Below are positions 2,715-19,466 of a stretch of DNA of 64,000 nucleotides, piece after piece. Below the pieces are notes generated by a model. That model was not told the origin of the DNA and made no database searches. It was given only the letters and a program-made list of their open reading frames with translations. The stretch is from Candidatus Poribacteria bacterium (GTDB lineage Bacteria > Poribacteria > WGA-4E > WGA-3G). The position numbers and the translations under genes were made by a program. The first letter of the stretch is position 1; each line of letters begins with the position of its first letter. The stretch covers positions 1-64,000 of the forward strand of contig JAJEIE010000012.1 in the NCBI GenBank assembly GCA_022827625.1, written 5' to 3'.

Positions 2715-4664
2715 ATGGTGGAAAACGATGTTCAACTGATCCGCAGAATTTTGTCAGGCGACGATGAAGCCTTCAGTACGTTAGTCCAAAAGCACCAAAA
2801 GAGTGTCCATGCCCTTGTCTGGCGGAAAGTTAACGACTTTCACCATGCTGAGGAAATTACACAAGACACCTTCCTCCAAGCATACAAAAAACTCTCAACC
2901 CTCAAAAACCCTAACCAATTTGCAGGGTGGATCTATGTCATTGCCAATCGACGCTGTATTAACTGGCTCCAAAGACATAAACCTGCGATGCAATCACTGG
3001 AGGACACATCTGTGGCAGAAATAGAGGAATCTTCTTACATCCATTACGCCGCGGAACAGCGCGAAGCAGCAGACACCGAATATCGCTATGAAATCGTCCA
3101 AAAACTACTGTCTAAACTGCCAGAGAGTGAACGCACGGTCGTGACACTTTACTACCTCGGTGAAATGACGGCGAAGGAGATAAGCAAATTCTTGGGGGTC
3201 TCCGTAAACACAATTACCAGTCGGCTGCGGCGGGCACGAGAACGTTTACAGAAGGACCAAGAACGCATGGTCCAGGAAGTTCTCGGCGGCGTTCAGTTAC
3301 CGAACCACTTGACCGAGAACATCATGCGGCAGGTCACCGATATGAAACCGACACCGCCTCCGGTTGCAAAGCCACTACTCCCGTGGGGTGCCTTTGGCCT
3401 CGCGACCCTTTTGGTTGTCATGCTATTAGGCGCGGCTAACCAATATCTTGTCCGTTTTCAGAGACCCTATAGTTTTGAGGCAGTCTCCGAACCCACGATT
3501 GAAATCGTTGATGCCTTTATCGTTCTCGATGTCGATTCAAAACCCGATGTCCGCAGCCAGATCGGACGAGCAACTTCCGCGAATAAAAACATCGGAGCAG
3601 GACTGCAGGCTTCTGAAACCCCCTTGGTATCCAATGTACAAGAGAACTCTATCAGATTGTCTACGGCGCAGTGGACGCGAAAAGCAGACATGCCAACAGC
3701 CCGGTCTGACTTTTCTACCGCGGTTGTGAATGGAAAGATATTCGCGATCGGGGGCCAAACTCGGGTTGAAAAGGGCGAATTTGGGGACCTGGCTCTTTCA
3801 AAAGTGGAAATGTACGACCCGGAAACCGATACATGGGAGCGAAGGATGGATATGCCGACACCTCGATCTGCTATATCTACCTCAGTTGTAGATGGGAAAA
3901 TCTATACCATGGGTGGAGAACAAACCGAAAAAATTAAGCGATATACGGGATACGTGTACGAAATTAAAGTGCTTCCAACCGTAGAAATGTATGATCCATT
4001 AACGGACACATGGACGCAGAAAGCGGATATGCCGACACCTCGGTCTTACCTTTCTACCTCGGTTGTGGATGGGAAAATCTATGCCATAGGTGGAGTGCCA
4101 AGAACTCGTGAATTATCGCGTTTGGAAACCGTAGAGGTATATGATCCAGCAACGGACACGTGGGAAAAAACTGGAGATATAAACCAAGCACGCTCTTGTG
4201 CAGCAATCGGTGTTGTCAATGGAGAAATTTATGCTATGGGTGGGAGGGGACTGTCCGAGACTCCGTATCTTTCCAGTGTTGAAGCGTTCAATCCAAAAAC
4301 GAATCAATGGCAGGAAATAACAGAAATGCCCTCTCCGAAAACGAGTCACACGGCAAGCGTCATCGATGGAAAAATCTATGTCATAGGGGGTTACGTTCAG
4401 GAAGAGAAAAAATATAAGAACCTTGCCACGATTGAAATCTATGATCCCGCAACCGACCGTTGGACCCAAGAACCGGACATGCTGACTGGAAAATCGGGAC
4501 ATACGACTGAAGTCATAGATGGACAAATTTATATCTTTGGGGGTGCCAATAGTGCGGGTGGAGCTCCCTTGACGAGTGTCGAAGTTTACGACCCAAGCGC
4601 AGTTTCCCAGCGTGTCAATTCAATAGGTAGGCTCATGCAAACGGTGCGAACCAATTTAAAATAG
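2715..4664 (+). CDS. ECF sigma factor fused through a membrane helix to a Kelch propeller
   Basis: A 649-residue protein with three parts. Residues 1-185 are a sigma-70 family ECF factor: region 2 about 12-88 (DDEAFSTLVQKHQKSV, AEEITQDTFLQAYK, GWIYVIANRRCINWL) and region 4 about 130-182 (LPESERTVVTLYYLGEMTAKEISKFLGVS). Residues 224-246 are one membrane helix. Residues from about 312 to the end hold six Kelch blades (KIFAIGG to QIYIFGG). The start follows TAGGAG. Sigma domains work in the cytoplasm, so the propeller should lie outside the membrane, making this a membrane-tethered sigma with its own sensor or adhesion domain. ECF factors with C-terminal extensions are known; no separate anti-sigma gene is adjacent. 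Whether the sigma part is released by proteolysis cannot be seen. Confidence 0.9.
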   Translation: MVENDVQLIRRILSGDDEAFSTLVQKHQKSVHALVWRKVNDFHHAEEITQDTFLQAYKKLSTLKNPNQFAGWIYVIANRRCINWLQRHKPAMQSLEDTSVAEIEESSYIHYAAEQREAADTEYRYEIVQKLLSKLPESERTVVTLYYLGEMTAKEISKFLGVSVNTITSRLRRARERLQKDQERMVQEVLGGVQLPNHLTENIMRQVTDMKPTPPPVAKPLLPWGAFGLATLLVVMLLGAANQYLVRFQRPYSFEAVSEPTIEIVDAFIVLDVDSKPDVRSQIGRATSANKNIGAGLQASETPLVSNVQENSIRLSTAQWTRKADMPTARSDFSTAVVNGKIFAIGGQTRVEKGEFGDLALSKVEMYDPETDTWERRMDMPTPRSAISTSVVDGKIYTMGGEQTEKIKRYTGYVYEIKVLPTVEMYDPLTDTWTQKADMPTPRSYLSTSVVDGKIYAIGGVPRTRELSRLETVEVYDPATDTWEKTGDINQARSCAAIGVVNGEIYAMGGRGLSETPYLSSVEAFNPKTNQWQEITEMPSPKTSHTASVIDGKIYVIGGYVQEEKKYKNLATIEIYDPATDRWTQEPDMLTGKSGHTTEVIDGQIYIFGGANSAGGAPLTSVEVYDPSAVSQRVNSIGRLMQTVRTNLK

Positions 4665-11641: not shown

Positions 11642-12943
11642 ATGCGCTTAATCGAAGGGCTGTCTATTGGGATCGCTGCAATGCGTGCGAACAAGATGCG
11701 TTCGTTACTGACGATGCTCGGAATTATCATCGGTATTGCGGCGGTCCTTGCAATGATAGCTATCGGAGATGGAGCTAAAGAAATTGTGATACAAGATGCC
11801 CAGAAAATGGGCGGGGCAACCCGAATTACATTGTATCAGACATCGTACAAACGAGAAAACAACAGGTGGGTCCGCATTCGTAGCAATGAATATATGGAAT
11901 ACGAGGATGTATTGGCAATCGAGGCAGAATGCCCATCCGTCAGTGCGGTCACACCGAGAATTGCGGACTGGCGAGGCGTACTGTTTCAAGGTCCGGGCGG
12001 CACTGAAGCCCGCGCAGGCTATAACGGCGTAAACGCCACCTATACAACCGCAATGGATTGGGACATTCAAGAGGGACGCTTTATTACAGATGAAGATGTC
12101 CAAAACGCAACAAAAATATGTGTGCTCGGAGACGAACTCGCAACCGAGCTATTTGGCAATAAATCACCCTTAGGACAAGAAATTAAAATCGCAAGAGACG
12201 TTCGATATTACGATCAATGGGGCAGAAGACGGCGAGATCGGTTGACCGAACGCCTCACCGTCGTTGGGACACTCGTGCCGAGAGGTACAAGCTTCCAGTT
12301 TGGCTGGAGTTACGATAACCTCGCCTTTATCCCAGTATCAACTGTCCAAGAACGCCTCACGGGTGACGACGGCGTCCACAATATTATGGTTTTCGCGAAT
12401 AGCATTGACGTTATTCCGAAAGCGATTGAAGAGGTGAGAACCGTCATCCGGAAAAGACATAACAACGAAGACGAATTCGTCAGAGTCTCTGAGATGCGCG
12501 CGGGTATGGCGCAATTAGAGAAGATTAGCAAAATGATCAAAATCGCTTTGGGGAGTATTGCAGGATTTTCGCTCCTCGTTGGTGGTATCGGCATTATGAA
12601 TATGATGCTCGTCTCTGTCAACGAGCGCATCCGCGAGATCGGTTTACGAAAGGCACTCGGTGCAAAACCGCTCGATATTCTGGCGCAATTCCTCATAGAA
12701 GCGATAGTCATGTGCGCCGTAGGCGGCGCGATCGGCGTTGGACTGGGTATCTTTGCTGGCGAAGGGATGGCGATGCTCGCTGTCAAAATCGCCAAGATTG
12801 TTCCCGAATGGCCCTCGGTTGTTTCTATGCAGTGGGTCCTGATTTCGGTATCATTCTCTGCCGCGATTGGTATCTCGTTCGGTATTTATCCTGCAATAAA
12901 AGCCGCTACCGTCCCACCTGTTGTGGCATTACGTAAAGATTAA
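11642..12943 (+). CDS. MacB/FtsX-type ABC transporter permease 1
   Basis: A 433-residue membrane protein starting at an ATG after TAGGAGG. One N-terminal helix (about 20-42, MLGIIIGIAAVLAMIAIGDGA) precedes a large periplasmic MacB-PCD-like domain (about 45-280). Three C-terminal helices carry the FtsX signature (GSIAGFSLLVGGIGIMNMML, REIGLRKALGAKPLDIL). In MacB the ATPase is N-terminal on the same chain; here it is missing, so a separate ATPase is needed. It is closely similar to the proteins at 15334 and 16830, which indicates duplication. It is likely part of an efflux or lipoprotein-type export system with the fusion protein at 19634. Confidence 0.93.
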   Translation: MRLIEGLSIGIAAMRANKMRSLLTMLGIIIGIAAVLAMIAIGDGAKEIVIQDAQKMGGATRITLYQTSYKRENNRWVRIRSNEYMEYEDVLAIEAECPSVSAVTPRIADWRGVLFQGPGGTEARAGYNGVNATYTTAMDWDIQEGRFITDEDVQNATKICVLGDELATELFGNKSPLGQEIKIARDVRYYDQWGRRRRDRLTERLTVVGTLVPRGTSFQFGWSYDNLAFIPVSTVQERLTGDDGVHNIMVFANSIDVIPKAIEEVRTVIRKRHNNEDEFVRVSEMRAGMAQLEKISKMIKIALGSIAGFSLLVGGIGIMNMMLVSVNERIREIGLRKALGAKPLDILAQFLIEAIVMCAVGGAIGVGLGIFAGEGMAMLAVKIAKIVPEWPSVVSMQWVLISVSFSAAIGISFGIYPAIKAATVPPVVALRKD

Positions 12944-12976: not shown

Positions 12977-13011
12977 GGCGCGCTTTTTGAGCGCGCCTTC
13001 TCTATTTTTTT
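12977..13011 (+). terminator. Rho-independent terminator after permease 1
   Basis: An 8-bp GC-rich stem GGCGCGCT (12977-12984) and AGCGCGCC (12990-12997) with a five-base loop is followed by TTCTCTATTTTTTT. It separates permease 1 from the sigma-clamp gene. Confidence 0.85.
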
Positions 13012-13069
13012 AAACCCTTTCCTCAAAAGTTTCCCTCTTTACAAGCGAAATCTAATTGGGAATCTGTTT

Positions 13070-14803
13070 ATGCGATACACTTCGTCAATGTACACCGACC
13101 TGACAGATGAAGAGCTCATTGAACTCACACAAGACGGCAACGAAATAGCATTCGGACAACTCGCGTCCCGTCATAGCTTCCGAATCTGGCAGTTAGTCGT
13201 CCTAAACTCGCGTCAGACCCGCGATGCTGAAGAAATCTTTCAAGATATTTGGATAGCGGTCTGGGAAAACATCGGTGGCTTACGCAAAGTCAGCAGTTTC
13301 GGTGCATGGCTTCAAAAAATAGCGTACACGGCTTGTAGACGTTACTACACCACCAAGCGTCACGCGCGTGGTGAAATCCTTCAGAGTGCTGATCAACTCT
13401 TTGAAACTATGGATCAGGACGCATTTGCTCGCTTTCGAGAGACGGAACTTCAAGAGGCAGTGACAGAAGCCGTGCATCATCTGCCAGAAAAAGTCCGTTC
13501 TGTCGCAGTGTTGTACTATTTAGAAAGATCAACTGTTAAAGAAATTGCCGAGGAACTCAATTTAGCAGTCGGCACTATCAAGACCAGGCTCAGAGAGATT
13601 CGGACGCGCCTACGCACGGAATTTGGTGTTGAAGAAGCTAAAAGCCGAAGAACGCCAAAAGCACCTGAACAGGAAGCACCGAAACCCGCAAGCAGTAAAA
13701 TTAAGGAGGCTTTTGAAATGGAATTAACTTTTGAACGGGATAACATTTTGCGCGCCTTGCAAGGACTGCAAAATGTCACGACTGGACAGGACGTCCGACC
13801 TATTCTCTCGAATGTCCTCATCCGCACGGAAGAGGGCGCGATCAATTTAGAAGTTAGCGTCAGAATGAAGGTCGAAGGGACAGTTAAAACGAAGGGGACG
13901 CTTACGGTTCCTGCCCAGAAATTGATAGATACGCTTAAAACGTTACCAGCGGATACACCGATAGATTTGGTAACAGCAGCCAACGACACCGCCGAAATTA
14001 GGTGTGGTGAAGGTATCTACAAAATCACCGGTATGTCTGATAAAACCGTTTCACAACCGTTTGCCGATGAAGGTGAAACATTTGCGATGCGTGGGGAGAT
14101 GCTGCGCGATGCCGTTCGGAAGACCCAATTCGCAGCATCTACAGAAAGCACTCGCCTCTTCCTAAACGGCGTGTACTTTAATTTCCTTGAAGATAGAACA
14201 GAAGTAGCTGCGACAGATGGCAAGCGTCTCGCGCTCGCATACTACGATCCGCTCAAACAAAAACGGAAAACGCATGGATTTATCGTCCCGCTCAAAGCGG
14301 TTCGAGAGATCCCGAGCGCCTTCCGGGAATCCGTTGAAGTGGACATCTCCGTTTTTGGAAATCAAATCCGATTTACCGATGGAAATGCCACTTTGACAAC
14401 CGAACTTGTGGAGAGAGAATACCCAAACTACCAACGGATCATTCCGAAGGACTATGAGAGCAGAACCATCGTTTCAACGGCGGAGCTGCTGCGCGTGACA
14501 CAGCACATCGGACAGTTGTCGAACACTAAAGAGCATAAGATCCGTTTGGAAATTGATACGGAACGCATTCGCGTCTCCACAAAGACCTCGGAATCAGAGG
14601 AAGCACACGAGACAGTACCCGTGGAATCCGGGACCGAATGTATACTGATTGGCTTTGATGCACGCTTATTGACAGATGCGTTAGCACATATTGAAACCGA
14701 GTTCGTTTCGATTGAATTCTCACGAGAACTGAATCCTGTTCTCATTAAGCCGACGGGCGATGATCGGTATATTTCGCTCATCATGCCGATGCTCTTGGAT
14801 TAA
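13070..14803 (+). CDS. ECF sigma factor fused to DNA polymerase III beta sliding clamp
   Basis: One 577-residue frame. Residues about 13-185 are an ECF sigma factor: region 2 (NEIAFGQLASRHSFRIW, AEEIFQDIWIAVWENI, FGAWLQKIAYTACRRYY) and region 4 (LPEKVRSVAVLYYLERS, VKEIAEELNLAVGTIKTRL). A 30-residue charged and Pro/Ala-rich linker follows. Residues 217-577 (361, full DnaN length) are a beta clamp: MELTFERDNILRALQGL, RPILSNVLIRTEEG, LTVPAQKLIDTLKTLP, EVAATDGKRLALAYY, TTELVEREYPNYQRIIP and a C-terminal YISLIMPMLLD matching the MPMRL end. Domain I seems to lack a few residues of the TATDLE segment. The clamp normally encircles DNA and tethers polymerases. I know of no described fusion like this. 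A second ATG at 13088 is an alternative start. Confidence 0.92.
   Translation: MRYTSSMYTDLTDEELIELTQDGNEIAFGQLASRHSFRIWQLVVLNSRQTRDAEEIFQDIWIAVWENIGGLRKVSSFGAWLQKIAYTACRRYYTTKRHARGEILQSADQLFETMDQDAFARFRETELQEAVTEAVHHLPEKVRSVAVLYYLERSTVKEIAEELNLAVGTIKTRLREIRTRLRTEFGVEEAKSRRTPKAPEQEAPKPASSKIKEAFEMELTFERDNILRALQGLQNVTTGQDVRPILSNVLIRTEEGAINLEVSVRMKVEGTVKTKGTLTVPAQKLIDTLKTLPADTPIDLVTAANDTAEIRCGEGIYKITGMSDKTVSQPFADEGETFAMRGEMLRDAVRKTQFAASTESTRLFLNGVYFNFLEDRTEVAATDGKRLALAYYDPLKQKRKTHGFIVPLKAVREIPSAFRESVEVDISVFGNQIRFTDGNATLTTELVEREYPNYQRIIPKDYESRTIVSTAELLRVTQHIGQLSNTKEHKIRLEIDTERIRVSTKTSESEEAHETVPVESGTECILIGFDARLLTDALAHIETEFVSIEFSRELNPVLIKPTGDDRYISLIMPMLLD
13703..13720 (+). promoter_or_regulatory. 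Internal ribosome binding site and ATG inside the sigma-clamp gene
   Basis: AAGGAGG at 13703-13709, eight bases before an in-frame ATG at 13718. That ATG is exactly residue 1 of the clamp by comparison with DnaN. It is stronger than the ribosome site of the full gene (only a weak GGGA near 13051). It may produce a free 361-residue clamp besides the fusion. Confidence 0.6.
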
Positions 14804-15333: not shown

Positions 15334-16635
15334 ATGCGTATTGTTGAGGGGCTATCCGTCGGTGTTTCTGCGATCCGTAGCAACAAAATGCGTTCGTTGC
15401 TGACGATGCTCGGTATCATCATCGGTGTCGCGGCAGTACTCGCAATGATAGCTATCGGTGACGGTGCGAAAGAAATTGTGAAACAAGATGTCCAGAAATT
15501 AGGCGGTGCGAATCAGGTCATTATGTACCGCACGTGGTACAAACGCGTCAATAACCGTTGGGTCCGCAATCGTAGTAGCGAATACCTGAAATATGGAGAT
15601 ATATTGGCAATTGAGGCAGAATGTCCCTCCATCAAGGCAGTTACTCCACAAGAATGGAACTGGGGAGGCGTACTTATCCAGGCACCGGGAGGGACTGAAA
15701 CCCGTGCCGGCTGGAACGGGGTAGATACCACCTATAAAACCGCAATGGATTGGAAACTTAAAGAGGGACGTTTTATCACAGATGGAGATGTGGAGAACGC
15801 AACGAAAGTTTGTGTATTGGGAGATGAGGTTGCAACCGCTTTGTTCGGTGACAAATCGCCTCTCGGACAAGAAATCAAAATTGCTCGCGGTAGCGGCCAT
15901 TACGATAAGTGGGGCCGCAAAGATCGTAGACGTTCTACGGAGCGTTTCACCGTCGTCGGAACGTTGATGCCCAGGGGCAGAAGTCTCCGGTTTGGGTGGA
16001 GTTTCGACAATCTCGCTTTTATGCCTATATCTACTGTACAAGAACGTTTTACTGGCAATGATCATATTGGGTACATCTCGCTCTATGCCCACACTGTCAA
16101 CGATGTTCCGAAGGCGATTGAAGAAGTAAAAACTGTCATCAGAAAAAGACACAGAAATCAAGACGATTTCATCGACTTCTTTGAGATGCGAAAAGGTATG
16201 GCACAACTTGAAAAAATTAGTAAGGTCATTAAAATCACCTTAGGGAGTATCGCCGGTTTCTCGCTTCTGGTCGGCGGTATCGGCATTATGAATATGATGC
16301 TCGTCGCTGTAACGGAACGGACGCGCGAGATTGGTTTACGAAAAGCACTCGGGGCAAAACGTTTGGACATTCTGCTGCAGTTCCTAATAGAGGCAGTAAT
16401 AATATGTAGCGTCGGCGGTGCAATTGGTATTGCGTTGGGTATCTTAGCAGGGGAAGGGATGGCGATGCTCGCCGTCAAGATTGTTAAAATTGTTCCCGAA
16501 TGGCCCGCTGTCATCTCCATGCAATGGATCCTGATTTCGGTATCGTTCTCGACGATAATCGGCATTGCATTCGGATTGTATCCGGCAATAAAGGCATCAC
16601 TACTCCCACCAATTGAGGCACTCCGGACGGATTAA
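15334..16635 (+). CDS. MacB/FtsX-type ABC transporter permease 2
   Basis: A 433-residue protein. The start is the ATG at 15334, five bases after TTGGAGGAT and aligned with the starts of the paralogues (MRIVEGLSVGVSAIRSNKMRS). The layout is one N-terminal helix, a periplasmic domain, then three helices with GSIAGFSLLVGGIGIMNMML and REIGLRKALGAKRLDIL. It is highly similar to permeases 1 and 3, with differences spread over the periplasmic domain (for example ITPQEW-like versus TPRIADW). This fits duplication followed by change in the substrate-sensing part, which is an inference. No ATPase domain is present. Confidence 0.93.
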   Translation: MRIVEGLSVGVSAIRSNKMRSLLTMLGIIIGVAAVLAMIAIGDGAKEIVKQDVQKLGGANQVIMYRTWYKRVNNRWVRNRSSEYLKYGDILAIEAECPSIKAVTPQEWNWGGVLIQAPGGTETRAGWNGVDTTYKTAMDWKLKEGRFITDGDVENATKVCVLGDEVATALFGDKSPLGQEIKIARGSGHYDKWGRKDRRRSTERFTVVGTLMPRGRSLRFGWSFDNLAFMPISTVQERFTGNDHIGYISLYAHTVNDVPKAIEEVKTVIRKRHRNQDDFIDFFEMRKGMAQLEKISKVIKITLGSIAGFSLLVGGIGIMNMMLVAVTERTREIGLRKALGAKRLDILLQFLIEAVIICSVGGAIGIALGILAGEGMAMLAVKIVKIVPEWPAVISMQWILISVSFSTIIGIAFGLYPAIKASLLPPIEALRTD

Positions 16636-16663
16636 TCACTCCCGTTTTAGACCGAAAACACTA

Positions 16664-16691
16664 AACCTATTATCCCTAATTGCGTCTAATT
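16664..16691 (+). promoter_or_regulatory. Candidate ECF-type promoters before permease 3
   Basis: AAC (16664-16666), 16 bases, CGTC (16683-16686), then TAATTAG. A second weaker box, GAACC at 16761-16765 with TGTC at 16782-16785 (17-base spacing), lies closer to the gene. The first matches the form before permease 1 (AACCT ... CGTC). Confidence 0.4.
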
Positions 16692-16829
16692 AGGATACAC
16701 CAGAAATTGTGAACATTAGGATGTAGCGCGCGTTCAGATAAAAAATCTTTACAAAAAAACGAACCTTATTAACATCTTCTTTGTCTAACACATTAAATTG
16801 TAAAATTATATTTAATTTGGAGGCATGAG

Positions 16830-18134
16830 ATGCGTATATTTGAGGGGTTATCTGTTGGCATTGCCGCCATTCGTGCGAACAAAATGCGCTCCTTGCTCAC
16901 AATGCTCGGGATTATTATCGGCGTCGCCTCAGTGCTTGCCATGATCGCTATTGGCGACGGTGCGAAGGCGATCGTGCTACAAGACGCTCAGAAATTGGGC
17001 GGTGTGAACCAGTTTACGATGTATCGAAGTAGTCATAAGCGGGTGAATAACCGATGGATACCGAACCGGAGCAATGAGTATTTTGAGTACGAGGACGTGT
17101 TAGCCATTGAAGCGGAGTGTCCGTCTGTTGAGTTAGTTGTACCGCGGATTCCCGAATGGCGCGGTGTCCTCGCTCAAGCCGCTGGAGGAACAGAACATCG
17201 GACAGGCTATAACGGTGTAAACTCATCCTTTGCGGAAGCGATGGACTGGAACATTCAGACAGGGCGTTTTATTTCGGACGAAGATATTAACAATGAAGCC
17301 AAAGTTTGTGTGATTGGTTCTGAGGTAGTTGCCGCGCTGTTTGGCAACACATCACCGTTAGGCAAAGAAATTAAAATCGCTAAAGGTGCAGGCGGACGCA
17401 GAGACCGATTTGGCAGGAGAGACCAGAAACGGATAACGGAGCGGTTCACTGTTGTCGGTACAATGGAAACTCGCGGCCGAAGTCTTCGATTTGGTTGGAA
17501 TTTAGATGACATGATCTTCTTACCACTGACAACGGCGCAGGAACGCTTCACTGGAAACGATAGGATTGTCATGCTTTCTGTCCACGCACACACTGTTGAG
17601 GAAGTCCCGCAAGCCATCGAAGAGGTGAAAGCGGTTCTCCGAAAGACACATAACGGCGAAGATGATTTCTTTTCTATCTGGGATATGCGGGAAGGCATGG
17701 CACAGTTAGATAAGATTAGCAAGGTGATTAAAATCGCCTTAGGGAGTATCGCCGGATTCTCGCTACTTGTCGGTGGCATCGGGATTATGAACATGATGCT
17801 CGTCGCTGTAACCGAGCGTACCCGCGAAATCGGATTGCGGAAAGCAGTCGGCGCGAAACGTCACGACATTCTGTTGCAGTTCTTAATAGAAGCCGTGGCG
17901 ATGTGCAGTGTAGGGGGTGCGTTGGGTGTGATCGTAGGTCTCTTCGCTGGCGAAGGGATGGCAATGCTTGCCGTCAACATCGTCAAAATTGTGCCTGAGT
18001 GGCCCTCGGTTATCTCAACAGAATGGATATTAATTTCTGTATCCTTCTCAGCAATAATCGGTATCTCTTTCGGACTGTATCCAGCGATAAAAGCGTCCGC
18101 ACTCACGCCGATTGAAGCACTCCGTATCGATTAG
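16830..18134 (+). CDS. MacB/FtsX-type ABC transporter permease 3
   Basis: A 434-residue protein starting after TTGGAGG. It has the same architecture as permeases 1 and 2 and a near-identical C-terminal FtsX region (KVIKIALGSIAGFSLL, GGIGIMNMMLVAVTERT, EIGLRKAVGAKRHDIL). Its periplasmic part contains a glycine/arginine-rich loop (GAGGRRDRFGRRDQKR) corresponding to similar basic loops in the paralogues. It is followed after 12 bases by permease 4, with GGAGGG between, so the two are co-transcribed and may form a heterodimer. Confidence 0.93.
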   Translation: MRIFEGLSVGIAAIRANKMRSLLTMLGIIIGVASVLAMIAIGDGAKAIVLQDAQKLGGVNQFTMYRSSHKRVNNRWIPNRSNEYFEYEDVLAIEAECPSVELVVPRIPEWRGVLAQAAGGTEHRTGYNGVNSSFAEAMDWNIQTGRFISDEDINNEAKVCVIGSEVVAALFGNTSPLGKEIKIAKGAGGRRDRFGRRDQKRITERFTVVGTMETRGRSLRFGWNLDDMIFLPLTTAQERFTGNDRIVMLSVHAHTVEEVPQAIEEVKAVLRKTHNGEDDFFSIWDMREGMAQLDKISKVIKIALGSIAGFSLLVGGIGIMNMMLVAVTERTREIGLRKAVGAKRHDILLQFLIEAVAMCSVGGALGVIVGLFAGEGMAMLAVNIVKIVPEWPSVISTEWILISVSFSAIIGISFGLYPAIKASALTPIEALRID

Positions 18135-18146
18135 GAGGGAATTTAA

Positions 18147-19466
18147 GTGAATCTACTTGAATGTATCATTTTAGGGATTTCCAGTTTGCGGCGAAATCCA
18201 CTCCGCTCCGCCCTGACAATTTTAGGGATCATCGTCGGTGTCGCCTCCGTCGTGAGTATGGTATCCGTCGGGGACGGGTCAAGCGCGATGGTCTTGCGAG
18301 AAATTGAGCGGACAGGCGGCACGAAAATGATTGAAGTCTATAAGGACGATTGGGATAAACAGTCGGGTACGTTAAGCCGTGCAGCCGGGTCTGCCGTGCG
18401 TGGCAGAGGACGATGGCAAAGAAACCGTGCGGAGGATCTGGAGACCGAGGATGCCTTTGAGATTCTCAAGCATGCCCGCGGTGTCGTGAACGTTGTTGCT
18501 GAAGACGATATGCCGGGATGGACAGTGAATTATAACGGGCGTACAAAGGAATCCCGTATTGTTGCATCCACCGCAGGATACGACCAGTCGCATAACTGGT
18601 ACCCATCAAGTGGTCGGTTCTTCAGTGCTGAAGAGGTAGAAGCGGCAAGTAGCGTCGCTGTGATCGGTTCTAAAGTTGCTGAAGAGGTCTTTCTTGAAGA
18701 AGACCCAGTTGGCAAAGAGATTAAAGCCTCGCGGCAATCATCCCGTTGGAGAAGCAGAAGTGGACTTTATGAGGTCCGCCTCAAAGTCATCGGTGTGATG
18801 GAAGAGAAAGGCGACGCAATGGACACCTCCGGCTGGGACGACCGGTTCATCATTCCGATCACCACGCTTCAGCAGCGGTTCAAAGGCCGCGAAGACGTTG
18901 AACGCATCCGTATTGAGGCATCGGATGTCAGCACAATTCCGATCGCAATCGCTGATGCCAAGCAGGTCTTAGGAAGACAGCACAATAACACAGGTGAAGA
19001 ATACAACTACTGGACAGCTACCGAGGAATTAGCAACCGCAAACAAGGTCGGCTTAGTGATGAAAGCCTTGATGGGCGGAATCGCCGGAATCGCCTTAATG
19101 GTTGCTGGCATCGGGGTCATGAATATCATGCTCGTCTCTGTCACCGACCGGACGAAAGAAATAGGATTGCGGAAAGCACTCGGCGCAACACGTGCCGATA
19201 TTCTGGCACAGTTCCTCATTGAGGCAGCCGTGCTGACGCTCTCCGGTGGTATCCTCGGCGCTATCTTAGGTATCTTTATGGGCCGCGGCACCGCCGCACT
19301 CATTTCGAGGTTCGTCTGGGAAGGTAGCAATTGGCCCTCAGTGATTTCGTTCGGTACAATGGTAATCGCTTTACTGGTTTCAGTCGCTATCGGTGTTTTC
19401 TTCGGACTGTATCCAGCCAATAAGGCAGCGAAACTTACACCTGTTGAAGCACTCCGCTCAGATTAA
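18147..19466 (+). CDS. MacB/FtsX-type ABC transporter permease 4 (divergent copy)
   Basis: A 439-residue protein with GTG start after GGAGGGAATTTAA. It is the most divergent of the four: MNLLECIILGISSLRRNPLRS at the N terminus, a periplasmic domain with an SRAAGSAVRGRGRWQRN loop, and the FtsX end GGIAGIALMVAGIGVMNIML and EIGLRKALGATRADIL. The tight coupling to permease 3 and the adaptor gene downstream suggest permeases 3 and 4 plus the adaptor are one export unit. No nucleotide-binding domain is present. Confidence 0.93.
   Translation: MNLLECIILGISSLRRNPLRSALTILGIIVGVASVVSMVSVGDGSSAMVLREIERTGGTKMIEVYKDDWDKQSGTLSRAAGSAVRGRGRWQRNRAEDLETEDAFEILKHARGVVNVVAEDDMPGWTVNYNGRTKESRIVASTAGYDQSHNWYPSSGRFFSAEEVEAASSVAVIGSKVAEEVFLEEDPVGKEIKASRQSSRWRSRSGLYEVRLKVIGVMEEKGDAMDTSGWDDRFIIPITTLQQRFKGREDVERIRIEASDVSTIPIAIADAKQVLGRQHNNTGEEYNYWTATEELATANKVGLVMKALMGGIAGIALMVAGIGVMNIMLVSVTDRTKEIGLRKALGATRADILAQFLIEAAVLTLSGGILGAILGIFMGRGTAALISRFVWEGSNWPSVISFGTMVIALLVSVAIGVFFGLYPANKAAKLTPVEALRSD

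Follow-up and report, generated by a model that had tools for sequence, protein, structure and literature searches.

The window analyzed (a whole stretch of 64,000 nucleotides from Candidatus Poribacteria contig JAJEIE010000012.1; host genome of 5.0 Mb in 41 contigs) contains at positions 13070-14803 (+) a single stop-free frame of 577 codons joining an ECF sigma factor to a DNA sliding clamp. The one-frame fusion described in the initial annotation was borne out, the 577-amino-acid open reading frame spanning exactly these positions and all five Pfam domains lying above the curated cut-offs, namely Sigma70_r2 (residues 48-97) and Sigma70_r4_2 (129-181) followed by DNA_pol3_beta (217-323), beta_2 (342-453), and beta_3 (456-574). 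The sigma part (residues 1-185; 13070..13624, +) was assigned by Pfam to the Sigma70_ECF family, with r2 and r4/r4_2 above cut-off and region 3 absent, and is followed by a linker (residues 186-216; 13625..13717, +) and the clamp part (residues 217-577; 13718..14803, +), which is also a candidate separate product of 361 amino acids from the ATG at 13718. This clamp had been called complete, which holds for the three domains by profile, but five residues are deleted around the domain I ATDLE motif and several residues that are invariant in standalone Poribacteria clamps are altered. An assembly or frame artefact was ruled out because the same frame is open in several independent MAGs as well as in the single-contig genomes G079 and G083. 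As to the second, normal dnaN that had been proposed as a check, the host carries two clamp genes that stand alone, G000:C26:358222 with a frame of 371 amino acids and G000:C19:69935 with one of 427, and it also encodes standalone FtsZ and standalone DnaE.

A MacB-like ABC permease (11642..12943, +; Pfam MacB_PCD and FtsX) ends 126 bases upstream of the fusion and three more MacB-like permeases, starting at 15334, 16830, and 18147, follow it (15334..19466, +; Pfam). At loci L004 and L005, too, the fusion is preceded by a MacB-like gene at a distance of no more than about 150 bases, and such genes were identified near the window-type fusion in G000, G068, G055, G056, and G083 while being absent from the 7-12 kb read in G070, G077, and G079. 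MacB permeases as constant neighbors were rejected, being present at seven of 50 sigma-A loci of at least 6 kb.

Distribution of the fusion and exchange of partners

A scan of genome contigs recovered 21 loci, 20 of them from Poribacteria, and five (L004-L008) carry a sigma-clamp fusion with a best-segment identity of 55-89%, one without clamp domain I. The presence of the same fusion in related genomes, also proposed as a check in the initial annotation, was confirmed in eight of 38 genus genomes (class A: the host G000 and orthologous fusions in seven further genomes, G055, G056, G068, G070, G077, G079, and G083), with the C-terminal domain conserved and open in the same frame in all eight and clamp domain I missing in G077. 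Class B comprises 29 genes in 26 genomes, i.e., 26 of the 30 genus genomes without class A, with frames of 575-606 amino acids, a clamp of 46-52% identity, and at the N-terminus a different ECF sigma that is distant from that of the window (37-56 bits vs. >300 in class A). Class C genes are truncated, with a sigma and approximately 235 clamp residues, and were identified in G054, G070 (additional to its class A gene), G071, and G081. The truncated sigma-clamp genes at L242, L243, L244, and L245 (461-466 amino acids) end within clamp domain II and have the same Shine-Dalgarno (SD) plus ATG joint.

Full-length class A and B genes occur together in none of the 38 genomes and neither is present in four. 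Functional replacement as the meaning of this mutual exclusion was set aside; on the tree of standalone clamps, from which G055 is absent, the class A genomes group together in a single clade, so the exclusion perhaps reflects one event. At least two joining events took place, since the class A and B sigmas belong to different ECF groups, and a clamp copy may have been passed on between them. On the clamp tree, class A is a fast-evolving clade adjoining standalone dnaN2 and class B is separate, both with full support. This fully supported split speaks against a common origin of both clamp classes, but a single fused-clamp clade was not rejected by the AU test (p 0.094); the two joining events are therefore claimed from the sigma side, and the clamps may still share an origin. 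With regard to a phage origin, none of 50,697 phage records covers 80% of the fusion; 114 records match it, all below 60% identity, and the five matches listed cover the clamp part only. No relative is encoded on a viral contig. Tandem standalone dnaN pairs occur in many genus genomes (L276, L266, L277, L279, L280, L259), and the cleft motif TDGxRL is often altered in the dnaN1 clade, e.g., to TDSRWL.

The window's sigma group was identified in 56 of the 84 Poribacteria genomes searched, all within one family. Its 85 distinct genes readable from the fetched loci carry FtsZ (34, including three loci that end before the frame does), FtsZ plus DnaE (20), WD40 (20), a clamp (8), PurC (1), DnaE (1), or an unassigned extension (1), and no bare sigma was found among them. 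On the sigma tree (SH-aLRT support only, with many open forks), clamp fusions are interspersed with FtsZ, FtsZ-DnaE, and PurC fusions, indicating that the sigma group has changed partner. The frame at L014:6001-10269 (1423 amino acids) comprises sigma, FtsZ (tubulin and FtsZ_C), PHP, polymerase III alpha, finger, and HHH domains by Pfam. Similar single frames of about 1430 amino acids at L012, L013, L016, and L117 join the ECF sigma to an entire FtsZ and the greater part of DNA polymerase III alpha, and frames of this type stop just past the HHH motif, before the region where standalone DnaE continues. The same sigma module is joined to SAICAR synthetase (PurC) at L011:5816-7303 (= L107), beside a sigma-FtsZ fusion in the same genome, and the second sigma-group gene of the host (G000:C15:47171-48268; L058:7058-8290) encodes the sigma and an FtsZ ending after the GTPase domain. 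In genus g3, two or more sigma-WD40 genes of this group cluster inside 20 kb (L094, L095, L122, L123, L128).

The attached parts could be tolerated passengers, i.e., the sigma would work alone, recombination at ribosome-binding sites would have trapped copied genes downstream of it, and these C-terminal copies would decay slowly and matter little. Such an origin fits the diversity of partners and their truncation, the T7 catalytic loop being absent from 21 of 21 short-type FtsZ fusions, DnaE lost from some frames, domain I missing from one clamp, and class C clamps cut short. It fits less well with the lack of any bare sigma among the 85 genes, with frames that are open throughout all eight class A and 29 class B genes, and with the joining of clamps to two different sigma groups.

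Upstream element and fusion junction

An ECF-type promoter-like element, TTAAACC-N17-CCTCTTTA, is located at 13010..13041 (+) and, judging from exact motif matches, is probably recognized by the sigma encoded downstream. The pattern TTAAACC-N16..18-CCTCTTTA has exactly two exact matches in its own genome (13010-13041 and C15:48296-48327), one directly upstream of each of the host's two sigma-group genes, and genus-wide 73 sites were found in 38 genomes vs. two for the reversed pattern. The next gene downstream of the motif is a sigma fusion at 20 of the 30 loci read, and MacB-like permeases (by eye) follow it at five of the ten remaining loci, in several sister genomes. No exact motif precedes the MacB-like permeases at 15334, 16830, and 18147. 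Allowing one to two mismatches gave 14 sites in the own genome, including the exact ones, vs. 23 in the control, and this unenriched pattern was dropped; a looser scan of the window added one site with three mismatches, at chance level. Many class B genes (L221-L254) have a recurring AATTGATAGRGTGCYTCTTT-like stretch approximately 60-100 bases upstream that is perhaps their own promoter.

The linker of the window gene includes an internal Shine-Dalgarno sequence, AAGGAGG (13703..13709, +; duplex energy -12.1 kcal/mol), eight bases 5' of the in-frame ATG. The junction sequence, AAGGAGGCTTTTGAAATGGAATTAACTTTTGAA, resembles the leader of the standalone clamp gene on C19, TTTGGAGGCTTGGAATGGAATTAACTTTTGAA, and since standalone dnaN copies have a similar leader, the dnaN ribosome-binding site probably came along with the clamp and now codes. 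Defined as an in-frame ATG with an anti-SD duplex energy of -6 kcal/mol or better, such a start was present at all 41 sigma-clamp junctions of classes A, B, and C vs. 20 of 410 windows taken from other parts of these frames. Across all fusion types it was found at 101 of 118 junctions vs. 98 of 1631 equal-width windows elsewhere in the same frames, a comparison in which the P values overstate independence as the 118 genes are mutually related. Only six of 20 WD40 junction windows passed, and we think that the window, placed by where the WD40 match begins, missed an earlier joint. The starts at sigma-clamp junctions suggest a second product, a possible short clamp-fold protein besides the fusion.

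Such a product would be central if the fusion were an expression device, in effect two cistrons whose stop codon is gone, with the sigma driving its own promoter, the internal start making the partner alone, and the full-length fusion being a by-product or second form. The strong SD and in-frame ATG at every sigma-clamp junction point in this direction, as does the class A lineage, in which the clamp (dnaN)-type start is kept while the older FtsZ-type start (AAGAGGGGAACAACTATG in relatives) has decayed. Within class A, the linker has a high dN in most comparisons (Nei-Gojobori) and a dS that is often low and below that of the flanking parts, and this low synonymous change would also fit. However, the parts would be expected to have become separated by a stop codon or a frameshift in some lineage, and no such case was found among the 118 fusion genes, which were collected as open frames, and the clamp so produced would be a poor clamp. 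This reading is considered decidedly unlikely.

Divergence of the fused clamps

Residues are numbered here after the P. aeruginosa chain from the PDB matches, whose numbers exceed those of E. coli by one near the C-terminus, and its Ile273 is presumably equivalent to E. coli Ile272. In the E. coli clamp, we take Arg24 and Tyr153 to be DNA contacts, Ile272-Leu273 to be the dimer interface, and positions 155, 172, 177, and 362 to form the cleft. A search of the PDB with the clamp matched 55 distinct chain sequences at E ≤0.001, every one named a clamp or clamp fusion. At the dimer interface, the Ile273- and Leu274-equivalents are hydrophobic in 56 of 56 standalone clamps; the former is Gln or Glu in five of eight class A members, and the latter is Arg in two of eight class A and 15 of 29 class B members. 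The DNA-channel Tyr153 is present in all 56 standalone clamps, none of the eight class A, and five of the 29 class B clamps, and Arg24 in 52 of 56 standalone clamps, no class A member (Gln in seven, a gap in one), and 11 of 29 in class B. The cleft positions 155, 172, 177, 363, and 364 are kept in all eight class A clamps, with Arg366 replaced by Leu in seven and retained in one. The class B cleft is kept in part (Thr172 in 16 of 29 and Met363 in 11 of 29), so a reading based on the cleft cannot be the rule for both classes.

Standalone clamps agree at 144 columns with at most one exception each. Most members have lost 35 of these conserved columns in class A (seven rows, excluding G077, which lacks domain I) and 29 in class B, and 14 columns were lost in both classes vs. 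approximately seven expected (P 0.0014); Leu27, Tyr153, and Arg366 are among the lost columns. Pairwise Nei-Gojobori dN/dS in class A was about 0.1 for the sigma, 0.3-0.5 for clamp domain I, which is relaxed, and mostly 0.1-0.3 for domains II and III; class B gave 0.18 for the sigma vs. 0.23 for the clamp. When scaled to whole-clamp dS, the medians for domains I/II/III were 0.28/0.21/0.24 in class A and 0.25/0.20/0.35 in class B, and 0.04/0.07/0.09 in standalone dnaN2 and 0.07/0.11/0.18 in standalone dnaN1. The fused clamps thus evolve several times faster than the standalone ones and are still under purifying selection. This several-fold elevation is what tolerated passengers would show, but dN/dS lies well under 1 in all three clamp domains; the constraint on the clamp part is modest and fits a passenger too. 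Overall, we rate that explanation as rather doubtful. An AlphaFold2 model of the fusion from a 15-row alignment was poor (mean pLDDT 54, pTM 0.28) and carries no information on docking.

In phage T4, the sigma-like factor and the clamp are separate proteins and the clamp is a working, loaded one. The initial annotation had drawn on this system, and a T4-like coupling would have the clamp part loaded on DNA, alone or with a normal subunit, carrying the sigma to promoters during replication. It would be in line with all three clamp domains being found by Pfam and with the activation of T4 late transcription by gp45 together with gp55 and gp33 (PMC7892883, PMC2988020). The likeness extends to a sigma-family factor and a sliding clamp acting jointly in transcription; unlike T4, the Poribacteria protein is one polypeptide and its clamp part is without the ring and DNA-contact residues. 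Since Tyr153 and dimer-interface residues have been lost in both classes, such a clamp-loaded sigma is unlikely; moreover, domain I is under relaxed constraint in class A, and one member lacks it entirely. A sigma riding on loaded clamps is accordingly not upheld, as loss of the ring interface, named beforehand as a refuting observation, was seen at the residue level and Tyr153 is lost from all eight class A clamps. Overall, T4-like coupling is highly improbable. The sequence evidence speaks against a self-closed ring, and a mixed ring with a normal subunit would be compatible with it. The broader proposal of a replication-linked sigma survives insofar as the fusion is real, conserved, and under purifying selection and ECF-clamp joining occurred in two sigma groups, which indicates that the tie of this sigma to a replication protein did not arise as an isolated accident. 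The other option in the initial annotation, a clamp competitor that senses replication, may hold. The exchange of partners with FtsZ, DnaE, WD40, and PurC, the internal start, and the self-directed promoter go beyond that annotation.

A proposed regulatory extension derived from a clamp

The best explanation, for which the chances appear about evenly balanced, is that the protein is an ECF sigma that regulates its own gene and carries at its C-terminus a regulatory extension derived from a duplicated clamp. In these sponge-associated Poribacteria, the attached clamp is probably a control handle on the sigma and not a working clamp, as suggested by its residue pattern; with the ring and DNA residues lost and purifying selection persisting, it probably now serves to bind proteins instead of being loaded as a ring. 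The sequences show that a gene of the dnaN2 type, together with its ribosome-binding site, was joined behind a sigma module that in relatives carries FtsZ or FtsZ-DnaE, and that the frame across sigma and clamp has stayed open. The sigma has remained strongly conserved, and the clamp has lost ring-closure and DNA-contact residues but is still under purifying selection. The ECF-like promoter, present by exact match in the own genome ahead of only this gene and its paralogue, would let the sigma activate its own gene, and the clamp module would hold or release the sigma by binding another protein. For class A, the first candidate ligand would be a replisome protein docking in the clamp cleft. 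The internal start may also yield the clamp module alone, and this product could set a threshold by competing for that ligand. Beyond these genes, the regulon is probably of limited size, and in sister species MacB-type exporters may belong to it.

This autoregulated sigma could also be part of a cell-cycle-reading network in this family of Poribacteria, in which each ECF sigma would be wired to a repurposed copy of one replication or division protein (clamp, polymerase III alpha, or FtsZ) such that promoter firing would report the state of the replisome or divisome. The internal start would make a competing sensor domain, and the lineage without a full-length sigma-B-clamp would have the sigma-A-clamp instead. 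A network of this extent is regarded as unlikely.

ECF sigmas with regulatory extensions are a known kind, and the available text of one review puts at 26 or more the number of ECF groups whose N- or C-terminal extensions are predicted to have a regulatory role (PMC8999054). The extensions it describes are SnoaL-like, TPR, WD40, cysteine-rich, carbohydrate-binding, and anti-sigma-like, with ECF42 (TPR) and ECF57 (WD40) as protein-interaction types (PMC8999054). As far as this text goes, the Poribacteria fusions share with these proteins a single chain in which a C-terminal domain comes after sigma regions 2 and 4, and differ in having a clamp, FtsZ, DnaE, or PurC as the extension and an internal start at the joint. 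None of these four was found as an ECF extension in the excerpts of the open-access literature searched. A WD40 extension occurs in ECF57 (PMC8999054) and also in relatives of the window's sigma. Assignment of the window's sigma to ECF57 was rejected; two conserved cysteines are thought to link sigma regions 2 and 4 in that group, according to the same text (PMC8999054), and residues 1-185 of the window protein hold one, Cys89. With respect to the bacterial beta clamp (DnaN), the likeness lies in the three Pfam clamp domains, whereas class A is fast-evolving and has altered interface and channel residues.

One bacterial phylum has repeatedly turned copies of essential replication and division proteins into sigma-attached parts. 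If these parts control the sigmas, they would offer transcription a direct route to read replication or division within one polypeptide. The natural swaps of clamp, FtsZ, FtsZ-DnaE, PurC, and WD40 on one sigma type constitute a ready series for studying how sigma extensions work, and the fusion junctions a clean test of internal translation starts within fused genes. In the host genome, 25 of 39 ECF sigma matches sit in frames of at least 400 amino acids and the extensions in ten of these include LRR, Kelch, Sortilin/BNR, peptidase M61, and AhpC/TSA domains by Pfam. One of the 25 lies in the window (2715-4664) and displays Kelch-like repeats by eye.
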